DNA of 23,151 bases. It comes from a virus. Positions 6,194 through 15,522 of the stretch are shown here, piece after piece. The stretch's first letter is position 1; each line of letters begins with the position of its first letter. A program made the position numbers and the translations under genes. The stretch lies in IMG/VR virus record IMGVR_UViG_3300027784_000860, positions 1-23,151 of that record, one strand, 5' to 3'. The notes beneath the pieces are model-generated. The model did not search any database. It was not told where the DNA came from and saw only the letters and a program-made list of their open reading frames with translations.

Positions 6194-8692
6194 TTATCTT
6201 ACCTCCTTTTTAAAATTTATCTTACTTGTCGAACCCCACCTATCACCGACTTCTACATCGGCCTCAAAAGGAATGTTCACATTTTGATAATGTTTTGGCA
6301 CCCATTCCATGGTGTCTTTAATAATTTTTCCATATTCTTTTACTTTATTTTCTTTAACTTCAAATAAAATAGCATCATGAACCAAATTAACGAGATTTAT
6401 TTCTTTATTTTTAAATTTTTCGTGTAAATGAATCGCCGATAATAATAGAAAATCTGACGCTGTAGATTGAATTGGAAAATTTACAACTTCACGCATTACG
6501 TGGTGTTTTCTTCTACGCGAAATATAACCGAAGTTTCTAGTTCTACCAAACGCGGTTTCAATAGTTTCGCCACTTAAAACTTTAGATTTCTGTTCTTCTA
6601 ACCACTTATTAGCGCCACTATATTGACTTTTCCATTTCTCGATTATATCTTTCGCTTCAGATTTCTTTAAACCAAATTGTAACGCTATAGATTCGTAACC
6701 TCTTCCGTAAGGAATACCGAAATTAATAGATTTAGTAATCGACCTTTGTTCATAAGTGAAATCTTCACCAAACATTTCTTTTGTAGTTTCATCATGAAGA
6801 TCCTTACCTTCATTATATAATTTTATTAATGATTCGTCTTGCGATAAAAATGCTAACGTTCTTAATTCCGCTTGAGAATAATCCGCTTCAATTATTTTGT
6901 AACCTTCTTTTGCCGTAAATTGACCTCTTATAACTGAATCTCTTGGTATATTTTGAAGGTTTGGGTCAGTCGATGATAATCTACCGGTTTCTGTACCGTA
7001 TAATTTAAATAAACAATGAATTCTGCCGTCAAAATTAGCGTGATCTTTCATCGCTTTTATAAATTTTGTATAAATTCCGCTATATCTACGCCATACAATT
7101 ATAGTATTTAATAATTTATTTACTGGATTTTCTAATCTTTCTGGCGGTATTTTTAATACAACCTCACCTTTATTTCCGCCTTCATGAATTACTTCAACTA
7201 AATCTTCTCGTGTTCTATCTATATCTTTTGTAACACCTTGTACCTCGTGAAAGAAATGATCTAATGCGGCTCGATTTGTAGTTCGCTTACCTTCATACCT
7301 ATCAAAACCAATTAAATCATATAATACGTGAGATAATTGTTGCGGTGAATTTGGGTTAAATTCTTCTGGTTCTGATTTCGCATCAGTAACTTCTACATAA
7401 TGAGAAGGATTAAAACCGAAATGGTTTACAACAAGATCGTTAATAGTGTTCGAAAGATTTTCTACTTTTTGTCCGTATTCGTATAATAATTGTTCGTTTT
7501 TCTCTTCGTCAAGTTTAATTCCTCTTAATTCTACGTCGATAAGCATATTTGTAGCCGGTATTAAAATATTGTCGTAAATCCATTGATAGTTTTCTGAAAT
7601 TTCTTCGTCGAGTTTTTTATTAATTTTTAAAACGTAATCTGTATCTTTAGCTAAATATTCATACAATTTATCTTTTGGTGCGTCGCCGTAATTTCCGCCG
7701 CTCGGAATATATTTTTTAAATTCAGATTCATAATCTTTCGCGCCAAGGTATAATTTACTTAATTCTGATAAACTATGAGTACCGCGGCGTTCGTCTACAC
7801 AATAATGTTTTAATAAAGTATCTTCATCTATTTTAGATTTTATATCGTATTGATATCTTAGAAATCTACAGTCAAATTGTCCGCCTTGCCAAACGAATTT
7901 AACCGAGGGGTTTTCGAGAAGTGTCTGGAGATTTAACATTACGACTGGATAATCTATCATTTTTTCGGGGATAATATAAGAAGTTCCCTCGAATGCCGAT
8001 AGACCAATTGCGATAATTTTATCTTCATACCATTTAAAACCTTCGGTTTCTATATCAATTGAAATTAAATCTTGTCTACTAAACCATTCAAACATTTTTA
8101 AACATTTCATCGGCGTATCTAATAATTTATATTCTTGTTCTAATTCTGGTAAATCTGAAGGTTTTTTATTTAATAAAGATACTGCGGTTTTTATATCGCG
8201 ATCAAAATCTATTAAAGACCGCGGTGAGTAAAATATAGAATTCGGACTATAGGTTGAAACGACAAACGCATTAAATTCTTCGTTCCATTTTCCGGGTCCT
8301 CTAGATTCAGTAACGCTATTATTACTTTGATAAAAAGATCTAATCGCATTTTTACCCATTAATACGATTATCTTAGGGTTTACTTTTTTAATATCATTAA
8401 CTAATTTTGATCTACAGTTATTAAGATGGGTTAAATTAATTTTCTTACTTCGTGGTGGTTTACATTGTAACGCGTTTCCAATCGATATATCTTTATAATT
8501 TATACCAGAATCTTCTAAAACGACTTGAAATAATCGCCTAGCTTTACCAGACAACGCTTCTTTATTAAATAATTCTGCGCGATTTGGAGAACTTCCAATA
8601 AAAAACATATCGGAAGTCTCGTTTATTTTATTTTTAACGCGCTTATCTTTACTACAAATACAAACGCCGCAAGGATTATCAGCTGTAGTCAT
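6194..8692 (-). CDS. Family A DNA polymerase fused to an Fe-S uracil-DNA-glycosylase-like domain
   Basis: Replicative phage polymerase of about 832 aa. Residues 1-195 match a family 4 UDG fold: CGVC, then Cys-x15-Cys (CKPPR...NNC), as in the 4Fe-4S site, and GNALQCKPPR. The catalytic GE of motif A is GS here (FIGSSPN), and the motif B HP is SP (TYSPNS), so the glycosylase is probably inactive. Next is a 3'-5' exonuclease domain (SIDIETEG, QFDCRFL, YLAKDTDYVL) with its acidic residues intact. The polymerase domain has motif A DYSQAELR, motif B RSITKSINFGIPYG and motif C VHDA, where VHDE is usual. A 5' nuclease domain is absent. I prefer ATG 8692; a TTG at 8719 is also possible. The start overlaps dpdA by 14 bases. 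Confidence 0.93.
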   Translation of the reverse strand: MTTADNPCGVCICSKDKRVKNKINETSDMFFIGSSPNRAELFNKEALSGKARRLFQVVLEDSGINYKDISIGNALQCKPPRSKKINLTHLNNCRSKLVNDIKKVNPKIIVLMGKNAIRSFYQSNNSVTESRGPGKWNEEFNAFVVSTYSPNSIFYSPRSLIDFDRDIKTAVSLLNKKPSDLPELEQEYKLLDTPMKCLKMFEWFSRQDLISIDIETEGFKWYEDKIIAIGLSAFEGTSYIIPEKMIDYPVVMLNLQTLLENPSVKFVWQGGQFDCRFLRYQYDIKSKIDEDTLLKHYCVDERRGTHSLSELSKLYLGAKDYESEFKKYIPSGGNYGDAPKDKLYEYLAKDTDYVLKINKKLDEEISENYQWIYDNILIPATNMLIDVELRGIKLDEEKNEQLLYEYGQKVENLSNTINDLVVNHFGFNPSHYVEVTDAKSEPEEFNPNSPQQLSHVLYDLIGFDRYEGKRTTNRAALDHFFHEVQGVTKDIDRTREDLVEVIHEGGNKGEVVLKIPPERLENPVNKLLNTIIVWRRYSGIYTKFIKAMKDHANFDGRIHCLFKLYGTETGRLSSTDPNLQNIPRDSVIRGQFTAKEGYKIIEADYSQAELRTLAFLSQDESLIKLYNEGKDLHDETTKEMFGEDFTYEQRSITKSINFGIPYGRGYESIALQFGLKKSEAKDIIEKWKSQYSGANKWLEEQKSKVLSGETIETAFGRTRNFGYISRRRKHHVMREVVNFPIQSTASDFLLLSAIHLHEKFKNKEINLVNLVHDAILFEVKENKVKEYGKIIKDTMEWVPKHYQNVNIPFEADVEVGDRWGSTSKINFKKEVR

Positions 8693-9455
8693 AGCGACAC
8701 CATTTCTTAAAAACGTCAATATTATAACTATATAAATCGCGCGGTTCTACGTCTTCAAACATATCTGGCGAACGTTTCGGTCTATCTATACTGCCTTTTA
8801 AGTCAAAACCATTATACGCGAAAGTAATCGGTGTTCTTGTATCGATACCGCGAATCCATTTTTTATCAGCTATCATTTTTATTTTATCTGATGGACCTTT
8901 TTGCCTCATTAAATAGCCTAATAAATGATATTCTTTACTTTCGTCAATTAAACCTAAATCTTCTAATAAATTTATCAAAGTAACTCTACCTAATTCTAAT
9001 TCTGAATATACGTCAGTTGTAGCTGAGATACCAATCGTATCTATAAAACCTAATTTCGACATTTTATAGAAACAATTTAAATAATCTATTAACGTTTCAC
9101 CTTGTGGTACACCATGAATTTGAAATGGTATGTCGCCGTAATTATTAATATAGTGATGATATGAATTAACAGTTTCGTTATACGTTCGTTCTGAATTAAA
9201 CGAATAATCCGGTAACATAACTTCGCTAGCGTTAACTCGTTTTGCTAAGTCGACAATACGCGGAAACGGCATAGGATACCCGAGTTCTACTACTGCAGTA
9301 TCGACCATAACGAAATCTTCATAAGTCGCGCGGTTATAGAAATAATTCGCATATTCGTCGCTTTCTTCAATATAAGACGGAATAGTCATATGATAGTTTG
9401 TTTTATCTCCGTAATGTTTTAATAAACTTACCGGCATAATATTAGAAACTTTCAT
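8679..9455 (-). CDS. dpdA: DpdA-like DNA guanine transglycosylase (7-deazaguanine insertion)
   Basis: A 258-aa relative of tRNA-guanine transglycosylase. Family members exchange guanine in DNA for a 7-deazaguanine base such as preQ0 or preQ1, protecting phage DNA from restriction. Matching features are the conserved N-terminal Asp (VMVDT, D52), the VMLPD block (D83), FQIHGVPQG (111-119, the substrate-pocket PQG typical of phage DpdA), IGIS (141-144), HLLG (177-180) and RGIDTRTP with the probable nucleophile D205. It is shorter than bacterial Tgt (about 375 aa), and the Cys-rich Tgt zinc site is absent, as in phage DpdA. Start ATG 9455 follows GGAGAGGGTTAA and overlaps the kinase gene. The two transporter genes upstream support this role. 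An unrelated TIM-barrel function is less likely. Confidence 0.85.
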   Translation of the reverse strand: MKVSNIMPVSLLKHYGDKTNYHMTIPSYIEESDEYANYFYNRATYEDFVMVDTAVVELGYPMPFPRIVDLAKRVNASEVMLPDYSFNSERTYNETVNSYHHYINNYGDIPFQIHGVPQGETLIDYLNCFYKMSKLGFIDTIGISATTDVYSELELGRVTLINLLEDLGLIDESKEYHLLGYLMRQKGPSDKIKMIADKKWIRGIDTRTPITFAYNGFDLKGSIDRPKRSPDMFEDVEPRDLYSYNIDVFKKWCRYDYS

Positions 9456-9984
9456 TTAACCCTCTCCTTCCGCATACTTGAATAATTTTTTCTAAAGCAA
9501 CTTCAAATGTTTCTTTTTTACTAATATTAGACGTATCAATTCTAAACGAAGAAACGGTTAATTGATTATAATACCAATTATCGTACGCGTCTTTTAAATC
9601 TTTTAAATACGTTTCATTCATATAGTCGTCAGGCGTAATTCTACTTGCGAGAATATCTTTATCTGCCGATAAATAAATAACAATAGTATTTAAATCTTTT
9701 AACCTTTTTTGAACATCATTTAAATACCAATTTCTAATCGGTTCCGGATGTGTATAACCGTTAATAATTTTTCCGTAAATTAAATTTGAAGGAAAGTGAC
9801 AACGGTCGATAATTTCTGGCGCACTAAACGAACTAAACAAATGTCTCATCGTTACGCCAACTGCTTCATTCGCGGTTACGTGGTTGGTATATTTTTTAAT
9901 CGGCCAACCAAGATAATGATGAAGTTGTGATACTAAACTAGATTTACCCGAACCATCAGGACCTTCAACAAGAATAAGCATCAT
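9442..9984 (-). CDS. Deoxynucleoside-monophosphate (thymidylate-like) kinase
   Basis: A 180-aa P-loop kinase. Walker A GPDGSGKSS is at about 8-16, the DR motif (DRCHFPSNLIYG) at about 60, typical of thymidylate and deoxynucleoside kinases, and a lid region follows IYLSADKDILASRI. It probably phosphorylates dTMP or other dNMPs for phage replication, beside MazG, ThyX and NrdJ. A role in phosphorylating a modified nucleotide is possible but unsupported. The start at 9984 overlaps the mazG stop (TAATG), and GGAGG lies close by; a second ATG follows at once. The 3' end overlaps dpdA by 14 bases. Confidence 0.85.
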   Translation of the reverse strand: MMLILVEGPDGSGKSSLVSQLHHYLGWPIKKYTNHVTANEAVGVTMRHLFSSFSAPEIIDRCHFPSNLIYGKIINGYTHPEPIRNWYLNDVQKRLKDLNTIVIYLSADKDILASRITPDDYMNETYLKDLKDAYDNWYYNQLTVSSFRIDTSNISKKETFEVALEKIIQVCGRRGLNESF

Positions 9985-10337
9985 TATTCCTCCTTTACTA
10001 TTAGTTGAATTTTTCTACAACTTAAATCTCGGTCGGCCCACCTTTCGTATAGTTCTTCGTGTTTTTCGTTCCAATATTTTTCGATATCAATATCAAGAAT
10101 AACGATAAGTTTAGCGATATAAATTAGTATATCTACAAGTTCTGTCGCCATATTGTCGCGTAGTTCTTGTGAGTCGCCGTCGCGCCAAATTTTCTTTACT
10201 TCGTTTGCGAATTCACCAGCTTCACCTGATAAACAAAGCGCCATATGAAATAAATTGTCATACTGTGGTTCATTTTCCTCCATTAAACCATGATAATCGT
10301 CAAATTTCATCACGTCGTTAATTACTTTATCTAACAT
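9984..10337 (-). CDS. MazG-like nucleotide pyrophosphohydrolase
   Basis: A 117-aa all-helical enzyme that would hydrolyse (d)NTPs or (p)ppGpp-like nucleotides to monophosphates plus pyrophosphate. The metal-binding acidic pairs are visible: GEAGEFANEVKK (ExxE) and ELVDILIY (ExxD), separated by about 24 residues as in the MazG fold. It is the first gene after promoter P3, with GGAGG seven bases before ATG 10337. The 3' end overlaps the kinase. Possible roles are cleansing the dNTP pool of an unwanted nucleotide or blunting a host alarmone response. In diaminopurine phages a MazG relative (MazZ) makes dGMP, but neither PurZ nor DatZ is visible here. Confidence 0.88.
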   Translation of the reverse strand: MLDKVINDVMKFDDYHGLMEENEPQYDNLFHMALCLSGEAGEFANEVKKIWRDGDSQELRDNMATELVDILIYIAKLIVILDIDIEKYWNEKHEELYERWADRDLSCRKIQLIVKEE

Positions 10338-10366
10338 CTTATCCCTCCTTTTAGATTCTAAAACCG

Positions 10367-10397
10367 ATTCTACTATATACCATATTATAAATCAAGC
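10367..10397 (-). promoter_or_regulatory. Promoter P3 (GC-TTGATT / TAGAAT, 17-bp spacer)
   Basis: The -35 TTGATT is at 10395-10390 after GC and the -10 TAGAAT at 10372-10367, 17 bp apart. It starts the mazG-to-nrdJ unit after the terminator at 10417-10451. Confidence 0.7.
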
Positions 10398-10416
10398 AAA
10401 TTCGAACATAATTTAG

Positions 10417-10451
10417 AAAACAAGTAAGACGACATTACGTCGCCTTACTTG
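10417..10451 (-). terminator. Intrinsic terminator after the guaA-like gene
   Basis: A 13-bp stem (10451-10439 with 10433-10421) and five-base loop are followed by TTTTCT. One G-U pair on the minus-strand RNA would be an A-C mismatch on the other strand. It begins nine bases after the GuaA-like stop and separates the transporter unit from the mazG unit. Confidence 0.85.
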
Positions 10452-10459
10452 CATTATCA

Positions 10460-11395
10460 TTACACTGCCGGAGATTGCAATTCTATACCACCCGGAGGTT
10501 TTGGCGTTATATCAAATAATACTCGCGAGACTTTCGGTACTTCTCTAACAATACGTTTAGATATATGAGTTAATTTATCCATCGGTACATCTGGTATTTC
10601 TGCTTCTGTCGCGTCTTCGCTAATAACGATTCTTAAACCAACTGCAAAACTATAGTTATCTCTAGAATCTTCTTCTTTACCGCGTTCGATTTTAGATACT
10701 AATGTCGCGAAATACCAGAAATTCGGATCATCATTCTGTGAAAATTCTTGTTCTACAATATAATCGGCGTGACGAACCGTAGAGAGACGTTCGCGATCTA
10801 TTTCGCCTAAAATTCGGACCGCTAAAGCAGTACCTGGAAATGGTTGACCGTATTTAATACGGTCGGGTAAATCTAATTCTTCTGCTAACTTTCTAATATC
10901 ACTTTTATACAAATCTTTTAACGGTTCAAATATTTCTATATCAAGATTCATATGCTTTACCGGCCGGACGTTATGATGGTTTTCTTCTATATCAATTTTT
11001 AATGTTCCTTGAGCAAGGATTTCAGCTTGTTCTTTTCTAGCGTATTCTTCAAATATCTTTAAATACTCGCTTCCAATTAACATACTTTTTTCGTGATAAC
11101 CAGGATTTTCTAATTCTGTTAAAGCATCGATAAAACGCGTTTGTTCTTGAGCGTAAATATACGGAATATTATGATTTATTAAAAACCTTTCGGTTTTCTC
11201 CCATTCATTAGCTCTTAACAAACCGTGATCTACAAATATACATTTAAAATCTACGTTCGCGATTTGTAGTAATTTAATCATACAAGACGAATCTATACCG
11301 CCGGAATAAGCCGCAAGAACTTTTTTATTACCAACAGTTTTACGAATATTTTCGATAATACGATCTTTAACCAGCGAGATGTTCGTTGTATTCAT
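10460..11395 (-). CDS. Stand-alone GuaA-like ATP pyrophosphatase (GMP synthetase C-terminal type)
   Basis: A 311-aa enzyme resembling the synthetase plus dimerisation part of GMP synthase, with no glutamine-amidotransferase domain. It has the PP-loop SGGIDSS (31-37), CIFVDHGLLR (52-61), LAQGT, NHHNV, PFPGTALAVRILGE (185 onward; normally PFPGPGLAVR) and a C-terminal KPPGGIE (usually KPPATIEWE). The usual VGVMGDxRTY region is replaced by a divergent GKEEDSRDNY stretch. GuaA adenylates XMP and amidates it; this form would use free ammonia, a partner amidotransferase or another substrate. The start at ATG 11395 is chosen for its AAGGAGG; the gene overlaps the transporter upstream by 29 bases. It could boost GMP or act on an imported deazapurine. 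Confidence 0.85.
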   Translation of the reverse strand: MNTTNISLVKDRIIENIRKTVGNKKVLAAYSGGIDSSCMIKLLQIANVDFKCIFVDHGLLRANEWEKTERFLINHNIPYIYAQEQTRFIDALTELENPGYHEKSMLIGSEYLKIFEEYARKEQAEILAQGTLKIDIEENHHNVRPVKHMNLDIEIFEPLKDLYKSDIRKLAEELDLPDRIKYGQPFPGTALAVRILGEIDRERLSTVRHADYIVEQEFSQNDDPNFWYFATLVSKIERGKEEDSRDNYSFAVGLRIVISEDATEAEIPDVPMDKLTHISKRIVREVPKVSRVLFDITPKPPGGIELQSPAV

Positions 11396-12095
11396 TTGTA
11401 AATCCTCCTTCGGTAACATCTTTCTTTAACCAAGCAACTATTACATAGATTAACGGAGTTTCTGCTAGTGCTAAAATAGTTTTAATTAATTGAACAGTAC
11501 CCATCATAATTAACATATCTCGCCATGACATAGTACCTGCAAATGCTAAGAATTGAAATACGATTGTGTTAGCGACTTGCGCTAAAAATGTACTAACATT
11601 ATTTCTAATCCAAAGCCCTGTTTCGCCTTGTTTTTCTTTCATTTTAGAGAAAATATAGATATCTAATACTTGAGTGAAACCTGAAGTAATGAAGCTTGCG
11701 AATAATATTCTCGGAACCGCGCCAAGCACTATTTCATATGCTGCTTGATGTTCGAAAAACGGTGCTGGTGGAAGCGATACAGCACCAATGTAAACTGCGA
11801 GTGAAACTAATTGGATTCCAATTCCGATAAACATTGTTTTAATTGCTAATCTTTTACCCCAAACTTCGTTTACTGCATCTGTACACCAAAACGTTAATGC
11901 GTAAAATATTGTTGCTGAATTAAGAATAAATGGACCTATTTGAACTAATTTACCTGCAACAGTATTCGCTGAAATATAAATCGCGAAAGTTATACCTAAC
12001 ATCAACATTAATCGCCATGGTATTACTGTATCAGCTGTACCAAATATCTTTTCAAACCTTGTATTCTCTTTTACATAACCACCAATTTTATTCAA
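11367..12095 (-). CDS. yhhQ: YhhQ/VUT-family queuosine-precursor transporter, second copy
   Basis: A 242-aa membrane protein with about six hydrophobic helices of the Vut_1 family, whose E. coli member YhhQ imports preQ0/preQ1. Family blocks are VAGKLVQIGPFILNSATIFYALTFWCTDAVNEVWG, given here as the region at about 46-80, and LWIRNNVSTFLAQ at about 161-173, then LAFAGTM. It starts at TTG 12095, eight bases after GGAGG. It ends inside the GuaA-like gene, so the two are translationally linked. Substrate is inferred from the family and the nearby DpdA. It differs clearly from copy 1 (for example CTDAVNEVWG versus VTDIVNEIWG). Confidence 0.9.
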   Translation of the reverse strand: MNKIGGYVKENTRFEKIFGTADTVIPWRLMLMLGITFAIYISANTVAGKLVQIGPFILNSATIFYALTFWCTDAVNEVWGKRLAIKTMFIGIGIQLVSLAVYIGAVSLPPAPFFEHQAAYEIVLGAVPRILFASFITSGFTQVLDIYIFSKMKEKQGETGLWIRNNVSTFLAQVANTIVFQFLAFAGTMSWRDMLIMMGTVQLIKTILALAETPLIYVIVAWLKKDVTEGGFTNEYNEHLAG

Positions 12096-12108
12096 TACTA
12101 TTTCCTCC

Positions 12109-12792
12109 TTAGTTTATACCTTTAATATTTTTAACTATTCTAACGCCGAGATATATTAATGGTGTATCTGCTATACCAACTAAACTTTTTAGTAACGCGG
12201 TTGTAGCCATCATTACAATTAATTCTCCAGTAGCCATCGTACCAGCAAATGCTAAAAATGAAAATAATATCGCGTCGAAAATTTGTGCTGTTACTGTAGA
12301 AACATTATTTCTAAACCAAAGCATTTTACCTTCATGCGCTTTTTTAAGTTTATCATAAATCCATACATCATAAGCGTGAGTTATAAGATACGTTGTAAAA
12401 CTCGCTATTAAAATTCTTGGTACACCGCCTAATACCATTTCAAATGGTCCTTGCATTTCGCCCCATGGAGCTTCTGGTATAAATATTCCGAAATAATAAA
12501 CGCCAATCATTATTAATTGAGCATAAATACCCATTACAACTAACTTTTTAGATATTTTTATACCCCATATTTCGTTAACGATATCAGTAACAAGAAATGT
12601 TAAAGGATACAATAAAGTACCTGCAGATAAGACAAATGGTCCAATTTGAGCTACTTTTGGTGTGATAGTATTAATCGCTGTTAATGAAGCGATAAACGAT
12701 ACTACTAAAACTAGTAAAGTCCAATCGAAATTCACATCGAGTTCTGAAGATTCTGAGACCCCAACCGATTTTTGTACATTTGAATTTTTCAT
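12109..12792 (-). CDS. yhhQ: YhhQ/VUT-family queuosine-precursor transporter, first copy
   Basis: A 227-aa inner-membrane protein with about six hydrophobic segments from residue 25 to the C-terminus. It shares the Vut_1 blocks PLTFLVTDIVNEIWG, GGVPRILIASF, LWFRNNVSTVTAQ and SFLAFAGTM with the second copy, so the pair is a tandem duplication that has diverged well beyond half of its positions by eye. A hydrophilic N-terminal tail of about 24 residues precedes the first helix. Start ATG 12792 has GGAGG 13 bases upstream, a longer spacing than elsewhere in the window. It is the first gene after promoter P4. Two copies may form a pair or take two substrates. Confidence 0.9.
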   Translation of the reverse strand: MKNSNVQKSVGVSESSELDVNFDWTLLVLVVSFIASLTAINTITPKVAQIGPFVLSAGTLLYPLTFLVTDIVNEIWGIKISKKLVVMGIYAQLIMIGVYYFGIFIPEAPWGEMQGPFEMVLGGVPRILIASFTTYLITHAYDVWIYDKLKKAHEGKMLWFRNNVSTVTAQIFDAILFSFLAFAGTMATGELIVMMATTALLKSLVGIADTPLIYLGVRIVKNIKGIN

Positions 12793-12914: not shown

Positions 12915-15455
12915 TTATTTTAAATCTACATTAAAATTTTGGGTTTCATATTTTTGTTCGCACATGTCTGTTAGTCTAATATTTCGCCACGCGTTAACTT
13001 GTTTGCCTTTCTTTTTATCTTTCGGATGAAATTCAACGAAATTATGAGGCGGTTGTTGAGATCTTCTAATAAACTTTCTAAATGATACAGGTTTTCTACC
13101 AACGTCGTGGCACCAATTTCTATATGCGGTATAAATAACAGACTTTTCTTCCCAACTACCTCTTTCTACAACAGTTTGGCTATCAATAAATTCTGACACA
13201 GAGTCAGACTGGTTACGGTATGATGAAATTTCATCTTCTACAGATTGAACTGTAGTAAATTTCTGATTATCTAACAATCTTTGGGCGCCTTTAACAGCGC
13301 GATTTAACCAGTATGATTTACCTTCGTCAGTATTCAATTTTTGTAAAATAAATGGGTCAGCATTTTCGCCTGGAATGAATTGATTTGGACACCTAACAAC
13401 ATGAATTCTATTAAAAAATACTGCGTCGTCGCTATTTATACGCGGCAAAGTATTTGCTGAAAAGAAAAACCTAGCACGATTTTGAAAATAAAATGTATCG
13501 CCGTGTTTAATCTCAGCATGAATTTTATCGCCACCAGTTAACATTTTAATAATTCCGGTATTTTTTAGCGCGCTACTTTCTAAATCAGAATAAATATTCG
13601 CTACTTTTCCAAATAAATTAGCGATTGAAAATGGCCTACCAGTTAATCTATGAAGCGATTCATGTGAAACGTTATCTTCACCAACTACTTCTTCTATTAA
13701 TTCTAAAAATTTACTTTTACCTGAATTACTATTACCAACTAGAATTAAAAACTTTTTTAACTCTAAATCATCAAGTAAAATATAACCGCAATGTTCCCAT
13801 AATAACGGAATTGTGTCAGAAGGAAATACTTCTTCTATAAATCGATCTAAACGCTCATTATATGCGTCAGGATTATAATTGACCGGAAATTGAATTATAC
13901 TTTTATATTTTTCATTATGCGGTTTTAATTCTTTTGTTTTAATATCTAACATACCGTTTTTAACATTAACGAGGTTATTATTTGAAGGTAACATATCTAA
14001 ATCTTCGTAAGTCATATCTTTTATCCACGTTATTGTATCGTCGCGGTATTTTTTCGCCCATCTATAGTCTAATTCTTCGCGAATTTTATTTTTTAAATAT
14101 GGTTCTGCGCCAGTATTAAAAACACCGTCTTCATAACGGTATAATACTCCGTTTAAATACATATACGAATCTTGTTCTAACAAATATTCTGCTAATTTTT
14201 TCGGTACAAATTTTTCAGATCCGGTAGATGTAAATGTAAAGAATTTAGATGTACCACCATCATCTTCTTTCTCAACTTGATGTAATTTTCTTCGAATAGT
14301 TTTTAAAGGTATACCACCAAGCGCTTGTTGTAAACGTTTAATTGTCATTTCTTTTCGTTTTGGTGGTAGATTAACTATTTTCTCATAAATCGGTTCCGCC
14401 CTTTCATCCTTCTTATAATCCGGAGCTTCCTCAACCTTCCTTAATAACCCCTCTAAACTATCGTCTTGTTCCTCTCTGATATAAACTTTTTTAGCGGACG
14501 GTAATACATAAGTTAATAAATATTTAGCACCTTTTTCTTTAAACTTATCGCCGCCAATCCAATTATTTTTAGCAAATATTTCAAATGCGCGGTATACTTC
14601 TGCATCATTTAACCCTTCTTTATAAAGATTAATAGCTAACCAAAAATCATTTCTCGATCTATCGCCTTCAAATTTATCTGGCGCACTTGAAGCCCTTTTT
14701 AAAATACGGTTTGAAATACGATCTTTTAAATCGTCAAGGTTTAAAATATCTACATCTTTGTCAATATCGATAGTAGTTTTAAAAATTTCTTCTTTCGCTT
14801 GTTCGAAATCTAATATTTCGTCGAAATCATTTAAAGTATAATAATTATTATTAATAGTTTTTACCGAACAAGTTTTCCACAAAGCTGGGTCATCAACGAC
14901 TTTCAAACCCGTAGGGTCATGTGGATTTTTAATATTTGGCGTACCAGGTAGCCTTAATAAACGACTAATATTATGAGTTGAGTCCGCTTCAAGTTCTATA
15001 TGAAGTGCTTTAGAATATAACGTTAATTCTTCACAGTTACGATTAGTTACTTCTATCGGATTTTCTAGAACCCAATAAACATGAAAACCATTACCTGAAT
15101 CTACAATAATAGTAGGGTCGAGGTCGAAGTTTCTAATTTTTTCTAACGCTTCACTTTTACCACCGTCAAAATCTTTACCATCCATATCGACCCAAAAGGT
15201 AATTAAATGAGAAACGTCTTGATCTTTACCAGATTTCCTTATTCGCGGTTGAATACCTAGAAAAATATGGTATTGGCCGGCGTGGCTTTGTGCGTAATTA
15301 AGTGGTTGAGATAAATCTTGATCTTCAGATAAACTAAAAAATCTTCTGTTAACAGTTGTTTCTCTAACTGGTCTTAATTCTAAAAAACCTTCATTAATTT
15401 TACTAAATAAAGTAGTTAAAAATAATTCCGCATCATCTAAATTAAACTGTTTCAT
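12915..15455 (-). CDS. Primase-helicase (AEP-type primase plus D5/P4 SF3 helicase)
   Basis: An 846-aa replication protein. Residues 1-200 look like an archaeo-eukaryotic-type primase: FWVDMDGKD (metal-binding DxD), DSGNGFHVYW, and SRLLRLPGTPN with the RLPGTxN block common in RepB/PrimPol-like phage primases. A linker (about 330-480) has helical, winged-helix-like features. The C-terminus has the D5 region (VKNGMLDIKT) and an SF3 helicase with Walker A GNSNSGKSK, Walker B region IYSDLES, and the sensor FFFSANTLPRI. It would prime and unwind at the phage fork for the PolA enzyme. ATG 15455 has GGAGG five bases upstream. Confidence 0.92.
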   Translation of the reverse strand: MKQFNLDDAELFLTTLFSKINEGFLELRPVRETTVNRRFFSLSEDQDLSQPLNYAQSHAGQYHIFLGIQPRIRKSGKDQDVSHLITFWVDMDGKDFDGGKSEALEKIRNFDLDPTIIVDSGNGFHVYWVLENPIEVTNRNCEELTLYSKALHIELEADSTHNISRLLRLPGTPNIKNPHDPTGLKVVDDPALWKTCSVKTINNNYYTLNDFDEILDFEQAKEEIFKTTIDIDKDVDILNLDDLKDRISNRILKRASSAPDKFEGDRSRNDFWLAINLYKEGLNDAEVYRAFEIFAKNNWIGGDKFKEKGAKYLLTYVLPSAKKVYIREEQDDSLEGLLRKVEEAPDYKKDERAEPIYEKIVNLPPKRKEMTIKRLQQALGGIPLKTIRRKLHQVEKEDDGGTSKFFTFTSTGSEKFVPKKLAEYLLEQDSYMYLNGVLYRYEDGVFNTGAEPYLKNKIREELDYRWAKKYRDDTITWIKDMTYEDLDMLPSNNNLVNVKNGMLDIKTKELKPHNEKYKSIIQFPVNYNPDAYNERLDRFIEEVFPSDTIPLLWEHCGYILLDDLELKKFLILVGNSNSGKSKFLELIEEVVGEDNVSHESLHRLTGRPFSIANLFGKVANIYSDLESSALKNTGIIKMLTGGDKIHAEIKHGDTFYFQNRARFFFSANTLPRINSDDAVFFNRIHVVRCPNQFIPGENADPFILQKLNTDEGKSYWLNRAVKGAQRLLDNQKFTTVQSVEDEISSYRNQSDSVSEFIDSQTVVERGSWEEKSVIYTAYRNWCHDVGRKPVSFRKFIRRSQQPPHNFVEFHPKDKKKGKQVNAWRNIRLTDMCEQKYETQNFNVDLK

Positions 15456-15487: not shown

Positions 15488-15522
15488 AAGAGACCGTATT
15501 ATGTAACGTAATACGATCTCTT
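15488..15522 (-). other. Intergenic stem-loop after the DUF669 gene
   Basis: A 14-bp stem with a seven-base loop includes a U-G pair that would be an A-C mismatch in plus-strand RNA. It lies 10 bases after the DUF669 stop. No U-tract follows (UACCCUUAUAAUUG), so termination would be weak or partial. It could lower expression of the primase-helicase or act as a processing site, like the element at 593-632. Confidence 0.6.

Follow-up and report, generated by a model that had tools for sequence, protein, structure and literature searches.

Among the closest described systems to the one reported here are the phages covered by Hutinet 2019 (PMC6884629), where 76 phages with DpdA only were listed, YhhQ was noted in some phages and uptake of the base was proposed; a further point of reference is phage EC151, which carries a transporter alongside full synthesis (PMC8310023). 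We analysed a 23,151-base virus record from IMG/VR (IMGVR_UViG_3300027784_000860, hereafter the window), which is linear, has a GC content of 33% and is probably a fragment. On its minus strand lies a row of genes that reads, in transcription order, primase, YhhQ, YhhQ, GuaA-like, MazG, deoxynucleoside monophosphate (dNMP) kinase, DpdA and PolA. The fold and catalytic residues of its DpdA, together with clade membership and synteny, indicate that this row is probably an import-fed phage cassette for 7-deazaguanine DNA modification, i.e. import plus insertion. A sequence-only reading of the same DNA had proposed a salvage-type system, and these lines of evidence agree with its import and insertion parts; as uptake had already been proposed in 2019 (PMC6884629), import-fed systems as such are not new. 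The unusual part of the cassette is the GuaA-like enzyme, found only in the window.

DpdA fold, active site and clade

On the evidence of sequence and model, the 258-residue window protein is a DpdA with an intact active site of the tRNA-guanine transglycosylase (TGT) type. The residues picked out by the sequence-only reading, D83, the PQG motif at 117–119 and D205, are present as described, and to these we add D52, which was missing from that list and which matches the general acid/base Asp of TGT. An AlphaFold2 (AF2) model built with four input sequences (pTM 0.70, pLDDT 67.6, weak beyond residue 208) was compared with the PDB by Foldseek, and the 50 best matches listed were all TGTs, including the archaeosine TGT 1iq8, with the TGT 3hfy at the top (E 1.6e-7, prob 1.00). 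Structure prediction had been suggested beforehand as a check on this protein, and it recovered the TGT fold with the acidic residues kept. When the protein was aligned with eight bacterial TGTs by hhalign (P 0.0017 for a single pair, with a probability of only 15%), D52 fell on the Asp of DSGG, PQG on VQGG, HLLG on YLMG and D205 on the Asp of FDCV; D83 was assigned by eye to the Asp of the TGT motif FDE(C). We take D52, D83 and D205 to be D102, D156 and D280 in TGT numbering. Across the aligned clade members, Campylobacter phage CP220 included, D52, D83, H177, G180 and D205 are invariant (13/13) and Q118 is kept in 11 of 13. Pfam and NCBIfam scans returned no family naming DpdA and no Pfam TGT match, two PHROG families, both of unknown function, match the protein weakly, and a PDB profile search with four DpdA sequences retrieved no TGT, so that the link to TGT rests on the fold match and the profile–profile alignment.

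BLAST linkage of the transglycosylases that we collected placed the DpdA of 9g in a group of 48 sequences, the window DpdA in a group of ten and the bacterial TGTs separately, the window protein standing apart from all eight of the latter. A profile of the window group scored its own members at 258–332 bits, the DpdA2 of nt-1 at 11 bits and the DpdA of 9g at 0.4 bits, and the last two scores rule out both a DpdA of the 9g type and a DpdA2 of the nt-1 type. The clade includes Youna2, BSP7, Flavobacterium phage immuto (where the protein is annotated as DpdA), Cellulophaga phage phiST and CP220, whose protein CPT_0056 joins it by profile (E 2e-46). A subfamily named DpdA3, allowing complete replacement of deoxyguanosine (dG), was reportedly described by Cui et al. 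in 2023; the window clade may correspond to DpdA3, and we make no claim of its novelty.

A transglycosylase acting instead on tRNA, by which an infecting phage would raise the queuosine content of host tRNA, would fit both the TGT fold and transporters classed as those of queuosine precursors. We nevertheless regard this as highly improbable: the protein lies outside the bacterial TGT group and clusters with a protein of CP220, a phage with modified DNA, its gene sits between those of primase and polymerase, and its 258 residues (TGT has about 375) include only two Cys, too few for the zinc site of TGT.

CPT_0056 is an unannotated protein, also of 258 residues, which keeps all of the catalytic residues (FN667788.1, 54675–55451; 8995–9771, plus strand, in our locus L224). 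The DNA of CP220 has been reported to contain 100% 2′-deoxy-7-amido-7-deazaguanosine (dADG) in place of dG (PMC8306585), and for the Campylobacter phages entirely free of dG a route without DpdA was under consideration in 2019 (PMC6884629). Its sequence makes CPT_0056 a candidate to carry out the swap of all dG for dADG in CP220-type phages; the clade link would thereby supply a candidate for the transglycosylase left open in 2019, and later work may already name one. In addition, a P-loop nucleotide kinase is encoded beside or near DpdA in the window, BSP7, Youna2, CP220 and immuto, these kinases falling into at least two unrelated-looking sequence groups.

Transporters and import-fed loci

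The two YhhQ proteins, which share 41% identity, both score above the cut-off of TIGR00697 (‘queuosine precursor transporter’) and above that of Pfam Vut_1 (Table 1), in keeping with the two transporters of this type named by the sequence-only reading. FolE, QueD, QueE and QueC were not found within the 23-kb window; the further statement that only import plus insertion is visible therefore holds over this length and is not shown for the whole genome.

A scan of IMG/VR for phage YhhQ gave 60 virus loci, which fell into 28 clusters, and in 27 of these a transglycosylase (DpdA) gene lies near YhhQ in at least one member, at a median gap of 30 bases. Seven of the 27 also have synthesis genes; the remaining 20 have none nearby. 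QueD-family (PTPS/QueD) genes were found in 7/44 whole records, and none was found over the full length of the 52.9-kb L133 record or in phiFN37 and Roos, which were deposited as complete genomes and carry a TGT/DpdA-family gene and YhhQ. The presence of DpdA beside YhhQ in 27/28 clusters, 20 of them lacking synthesis genes, makes import-fed DpdA a common arrangement and suggests that YhhQ-carrying viruses usually have this form.

Full synthesis might yet be encoded in the unseen part of the genome, the YhhQ genes topping up the supply, as the record is 23 kb of uncertain completeness and as both kinds of gene occur together in the seven clusters above, in Streptococcus virus MS1, where synthesis genes stand beside DpdA and YhhQ, and in EC151 (PMC8310023). 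We think this quite unlikely, since those relatives that have synthesis genes place them in the same interval or beside DpdA and YhhQ, and since no PTPS/QueD occurs over the whole of L133, phiFN37 and Roos.

The survey also turned up a second case of two transporters with one DpdA, in which DpdA is flanked by YhhQ on both sides (L131:9983-12372). A small protein with HCWP, HRH and SCEDIA motifs is encoded upstream of DpdA in import-type loci (L133:8020-8382, L119:469-1290 and L014:8435-8743); its similarity to PTPS/QueD is very weak (E 0.099), and it may represent a relative of QueD in reduced form. In Fusobacterium phage phiFN37 a DUF6884 gene lies between DpdA and YhhQ (L012:8565-8999), and there is an upstream PP-loop gene similar to phosphoadenosine phosphosulfate reductase (L012:2532-3803), with a PP-loop gene of similar size in L074 and L076–L078. 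YhhQ matches on the gut ‘phage’ contigs MT836020 and MT836583 were set aside, their surroundings looking like pieces of bacterial chromosome.

The GuaA-like enzyme

The GuaA-like protein contains the PP-loop SGGIDSS and a GMP_synt_C domain (PF00958, E 3e-18) and is approximately 40% identical to the ATP pyrophosphatases (ATPPases) of GMP synthetases (GMPS). Its closest sequence match in the PDB is subunit B of the M. jannaschii GMP synthetase (6jp9, E 3e-62), which is matched also by its AF2 model (E 2.8e-28, TMq 0.78), the GMPS fold being confident over most of that model; its earlier naming as a GuaA-like ATP pyrophosphatase is upheld by these matches. Translation more likely starts at 11395, where there is a GAAGGAGG ribosome site, than at the listed open reading frame (ORF) start at 11419, from which the residue numbers given here are counted. 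The score against TIGR00884 (guaA_Cterm) is 246, i.e. below the cut-off of 339, and no glutamine amidotransferase (GATase) domain was found in the ORF or among the scanned window proteins, which represent part of the ORFs of a fragment.

In a comparison with 80 bacterial GuaA sequences, in which 108 columns are at least 95% conserved, the protein departs from 40 of these near-invariant columns. The XMP contacts were taken from the T. thermophilus GuaA (PMC11448925) and the M. jannaschii ATPPase (PMC10526850). The PP-loop, K172 and the four residues required for adenylation and amination (D143, H148, H149 and N150) are kept, as are five residues that contact the XMP phosphate or support it (K307, I312, E313, R299 and R253), whereas the contacts to base and sugar are mostly lost, which, over eleven contacts in total, is a pattern and not a statistical proof. 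The Arg that reads xanthine O6, found in 100% of the 80 GuaA sequences and described as the key discriminator of XMP (PMC10526850), is replaced by S112; the base loop is PGTA instead of PGPG, its Pro and Gly becoming T197 and A198; and the ribose-contacting Gln is deleted. The lid is shortened and reads IEENHHN where the invariant motif is IK(S/T)HHN, the Ser and Lys columns (again 100% in the 80 sequences) being deleted and HHN kept, Gly191 replaces an Arg that contacts the ATP phosphate in simulations, and at the C terminus the Glu that holds the base Arg through its carboxylate is replaced by a Gln plus four extra residues. Judged from these residues, the enzyme is probably not an ordinary GMP synthetase, and we infer that its acceptor would be a phosphorylated compound other than XMP.

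A plainer role for the enzyme would be in nucleotide supply only, as an ammonia-dependent GMP/dGMP synthase that keeps dGTP up together with MazG and the kinase. Its fold and overall sequence are those of GMP synthetase, the PP-loop, the catalytic His/His/Asn and the phosphate residues are kept, and its gene adjoins those of MazG and the dNMP kinase in a phage that also carries ribonucleotide reductase (RNR) and ThyX. We rather doubt such a role, as the XMP-discriminating Arg of 80/80 GuaA sequences is a Ser, the otherwise invariant base loop, ribose Gln and lid Ser-Lys are changed or deleted, and the guaA_Cterm cut-off is not reached. It is also conceivable, if unlikely, that the gene is decaying or a mere passenger and its product inactive, for it was found in one virus only and the lid Lys and ATP-contacting Arg, invariant elsewhere, have gone. 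Set against this are an uninterrupted reading frame, preceded by a strong ribosome site, in a tightly packed row, the retention of the catalytic Asp, both His, the Asn, the PP-loop and the phosphate residues, and the confident fold.

Matches to GuaA in INPHARED, which included standard GuaA proteins with canonical motifs and unannotated contigs, were left out of the count of phage relatives. When viral DNA was searched for a pattern encoding QPFPGTA, a motif of the GuaA-like protein, 54 contigs matched and a GuaA relative was encoded on none of them; scans of IMG/VR with the window DpdA, GuaA-like protein, PolA and primase and with alignments A2 and A3 gave no confirmed relative, the patterns probably being too specific, and a genome scan with alignment A3 gave no relative. 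By sequence the protein does not belong to QueC: a PP-loop match to phrog_1550 was the only one and was weak (E 2e-5), which leaves its position in the row as the sole link. No paper connecting GuaA or GMP synthase with the modification of phage DNA came up in a literature search.

Gene row and neighbouring features

The genes and the codons of the DpdA catalytic residues are located in Table 1. The row is tightly packed, most genes overlapping or lying no more than 20 bases apart, the exceptions being two 122-base gaps (before YhhQ1 and before MazG), and clear ribosome sites are found upstream of most of its genes. The sequence-only reading had placed the genes that it named correctly and had omitted two, MazG and the kinase, both of which recur near DpdA in several phages: MazG is also near DpdA in L079 (IMGVR_UViG_3300027784_000835), L133 and phiST, and the window kinase is 26–27% identical to the DpdA-adjacent kinases of BSP7 and Youna2. 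PolA likewise adjoins DpdA in BSP7, Youna2 and L079.

Table 1 Location of the cassette genes, their borders and the DpdA catalytic codons in the window
Feature	Position	Strand	Evidence or remark
PolA with N-terminal domain like uracil-DNA glycosylase	6194..8719	-	PF00476, PF03167; cassette border on the DpdA side
DpdA-type DNA guanine transglycosylase, 258 aa	8679..9455	-	TGT fold, catalytic residues
DpdA D205	8841-8843	-	
DpdA Q118	9102-9104	-	
DpdA D83	9207-9209	-	
DpdA D52	9300-9302	-	
dNMP/deoxynucleoside kinase, 180 aa	9442..9984	-	PF01712 above cut-off, phrog_761; overlaps the DpdA start
MazG-like nucleotide pyrophosphohydrolase, 117 aa	9984..10337	-	PF03819, phrog_229
GuaA-like ATP pyrophosphatase of the ammonia type, lacking GATase; 311 aa counted from the likely start	10460..11395	-	PF00958
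YhhQ copy 2	11367..12095	-	TIGR00697 129 bits (cut-off 50.95), PF02592
YhhQ copy 1	12109..12792	-	TIGR00697 137 bits (cut-off 50.95), Pfam Vut_1 above curated cut-off
Primase	12915..15455	-	phrog_864; cassette border on the YhhQ side

Downstream of PolA lie genes for a helix-turn-helix protein, a 3D-domain-like protein, ThyX and a class II RNR. The GC content of 33%, an amidase endolysin and the 3D-domain protein suggest a Gram-positive host. The N-terminal domain of the window PolA belongs to the uracil-DNA glycosylase superfamily (PF03167, E 8e-16), and the PolA homologues of Youna2 (L002:8707-11976) and BSP7 (L005:8683-11586) are each divided into two ORFs, the intervening sequence possibly being an intron or intein. 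A nine-pair inverted repeat is present at 15495–15515, between the primase and DUF669 genes, in a region where hairpins do not stand clearly above shuffled sequences and where promoter-like and terminator-like sites likewise show no clear excess over shuffles.

Proposed mechanism and its implications

In the proposed mechanism, YhhQ1 and YhhQ2 would raise the cell's supply of 7-cyano-7-deazaguanine (preQ0), 7-aminomethyl-7-deazaguanine (preQ1) or a related base, DpdA would put the imported base in the place of guanine in freshly synthesized phage DNA, perhaps at the majority of G positions or all of them, and the modified DNA would escape restriction. Were replacement complete, a genome assumed to be 50 kb at 33% GC would need approximately 16,500 bases per copy, or approximately 1.6 million for an assumed burst of one hundred progeny, and so high a demand would explain the two pumps. 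More weakly, the GuaA-like protein might be an ammonia-dependent adenylating enzyme that aminates or amidates a phosphorylated purine other than XMP, most likely a deazaguanine, for example from acid to amide or from amide to amidine, at the nucleotide or the DNA level. Chemistry related to that of QueC, a PP-loop adenylating enzyme present in the L079 row, would be an attractive possibility by analogy. Taken alone, this base-tailoring step is a tentative suggestion that we hold to be somewhat less than probable; that the protein is a rebuilt GMP synthetase which tailors the imported deazaguanine, as a nucleotide or in DNA, by a route unlike those of QueC, Gat-QueC, ArcS and QueF-L, seems to us rather doubtful. 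If tailoring does occur, the phage DNA would carry an amide- or amidine-type deazaguanine that neither import nor DpdA alone would explain. In this respect the gene could account for a step not described so far, and it would be an example of a core purine enzyme redirected to DNA modification.

Several points weigh against the scheme as a whole. The window DpdA is just 25–29% identical to its relatives and the last 50 residues of its model are poorly predicted. The YhhQ copies reach 33 and 48 bits with NF008406 (the E. coli type of preQ0/preQ1 transporter), the cut-off of which is 252, and the substrate of both is therefore unproven. The window is a fragment, and synthesis genes may lie outside its 23 kb. 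The lid Lys (Lys386 of P. falciparum GMPS) and the ATP-phosphate Arg are missing from the GuaA-like protein, which could therefore be inactive. Searches of other viruses and genomes, 44 YhhQ–DpdA records among them, did not bring up its gene again, so that a single gene row ties it to the pathway. If import plus insertion is nonetheless correct, the phage rewrites its genomic guanine with an imported and not a self-made base, and the modification, perhaps with it the escape from restriction, depends on supply by the host and its surroundings.

Comparison with known systems

The group 3 phages of Hutinet 2019 (PMC6884629) resemble the window in having DpdA without synthesis genes in view; the window differs from the DpdA-only phages of that study by its two adjacent transporters, its GuaA-like enzyme and a DpdA clade apart from those of 9g and nt-1. 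CP220 (Firehammervirus) shares with it a transglycosylase of the same clade and the same size adjoining a P-loop kinase, but the kinases of the two show no detectable relationship, and no transporter or GuaA-like gene is annotated in the 18.5 kb examined. With subunit B of M. jannaschii (6jp9) the GuaA-like protein has in common a stand-alone ATPPase with a dimerization domain, the fold and the catalytic and phosphate residues, whereas Arg102 of the XMP base site, the PGPG loop, the ribose Gln and the lid Ser-Lys are not kept, the C-terminal Glu is changed, the tail is longer and no GATase partner is in view.

In Oceanotoga phage UFV02, the nearest relative in backbone, primase is followed directly by PolA, with no cassette between them. 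L079 is co-linear with the window over approximately 15 kb, in the order AAA ATPase, DUF669, QueC, YhhQ, MazG, DpdA, PolA and RNR; it differs in having QueC, likewise a PP-loop ATPase, at the position of the GuaA-like gene, one YhhQ, a primase elsewhere and no kinase that we could find. BSP7 (from Bacillus) and Youna2 (from Weizmannia) have the order primase, QueC, QueD, QueE, FolE, kinase, DpdA and PolA, and so match the window in having primase on one side and kinase, DpdA and PolA on the other. The last three are homologous between these phages and the window, whereas the primases are not detectably related. The interval between holds QueC, QueD, QueE and FolE and no YhhQ in BSP7 and Youna2, and YhhQ, YhhQ, GuaA-like and MazG in the window. 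Taken together, the shared DpdA–kinase–PolA order in Youna2 and BSP7 and the adjacency of YhhQ and DpdA in 27/28 clusters indicate that the grouping of genes in the window is more than chance.

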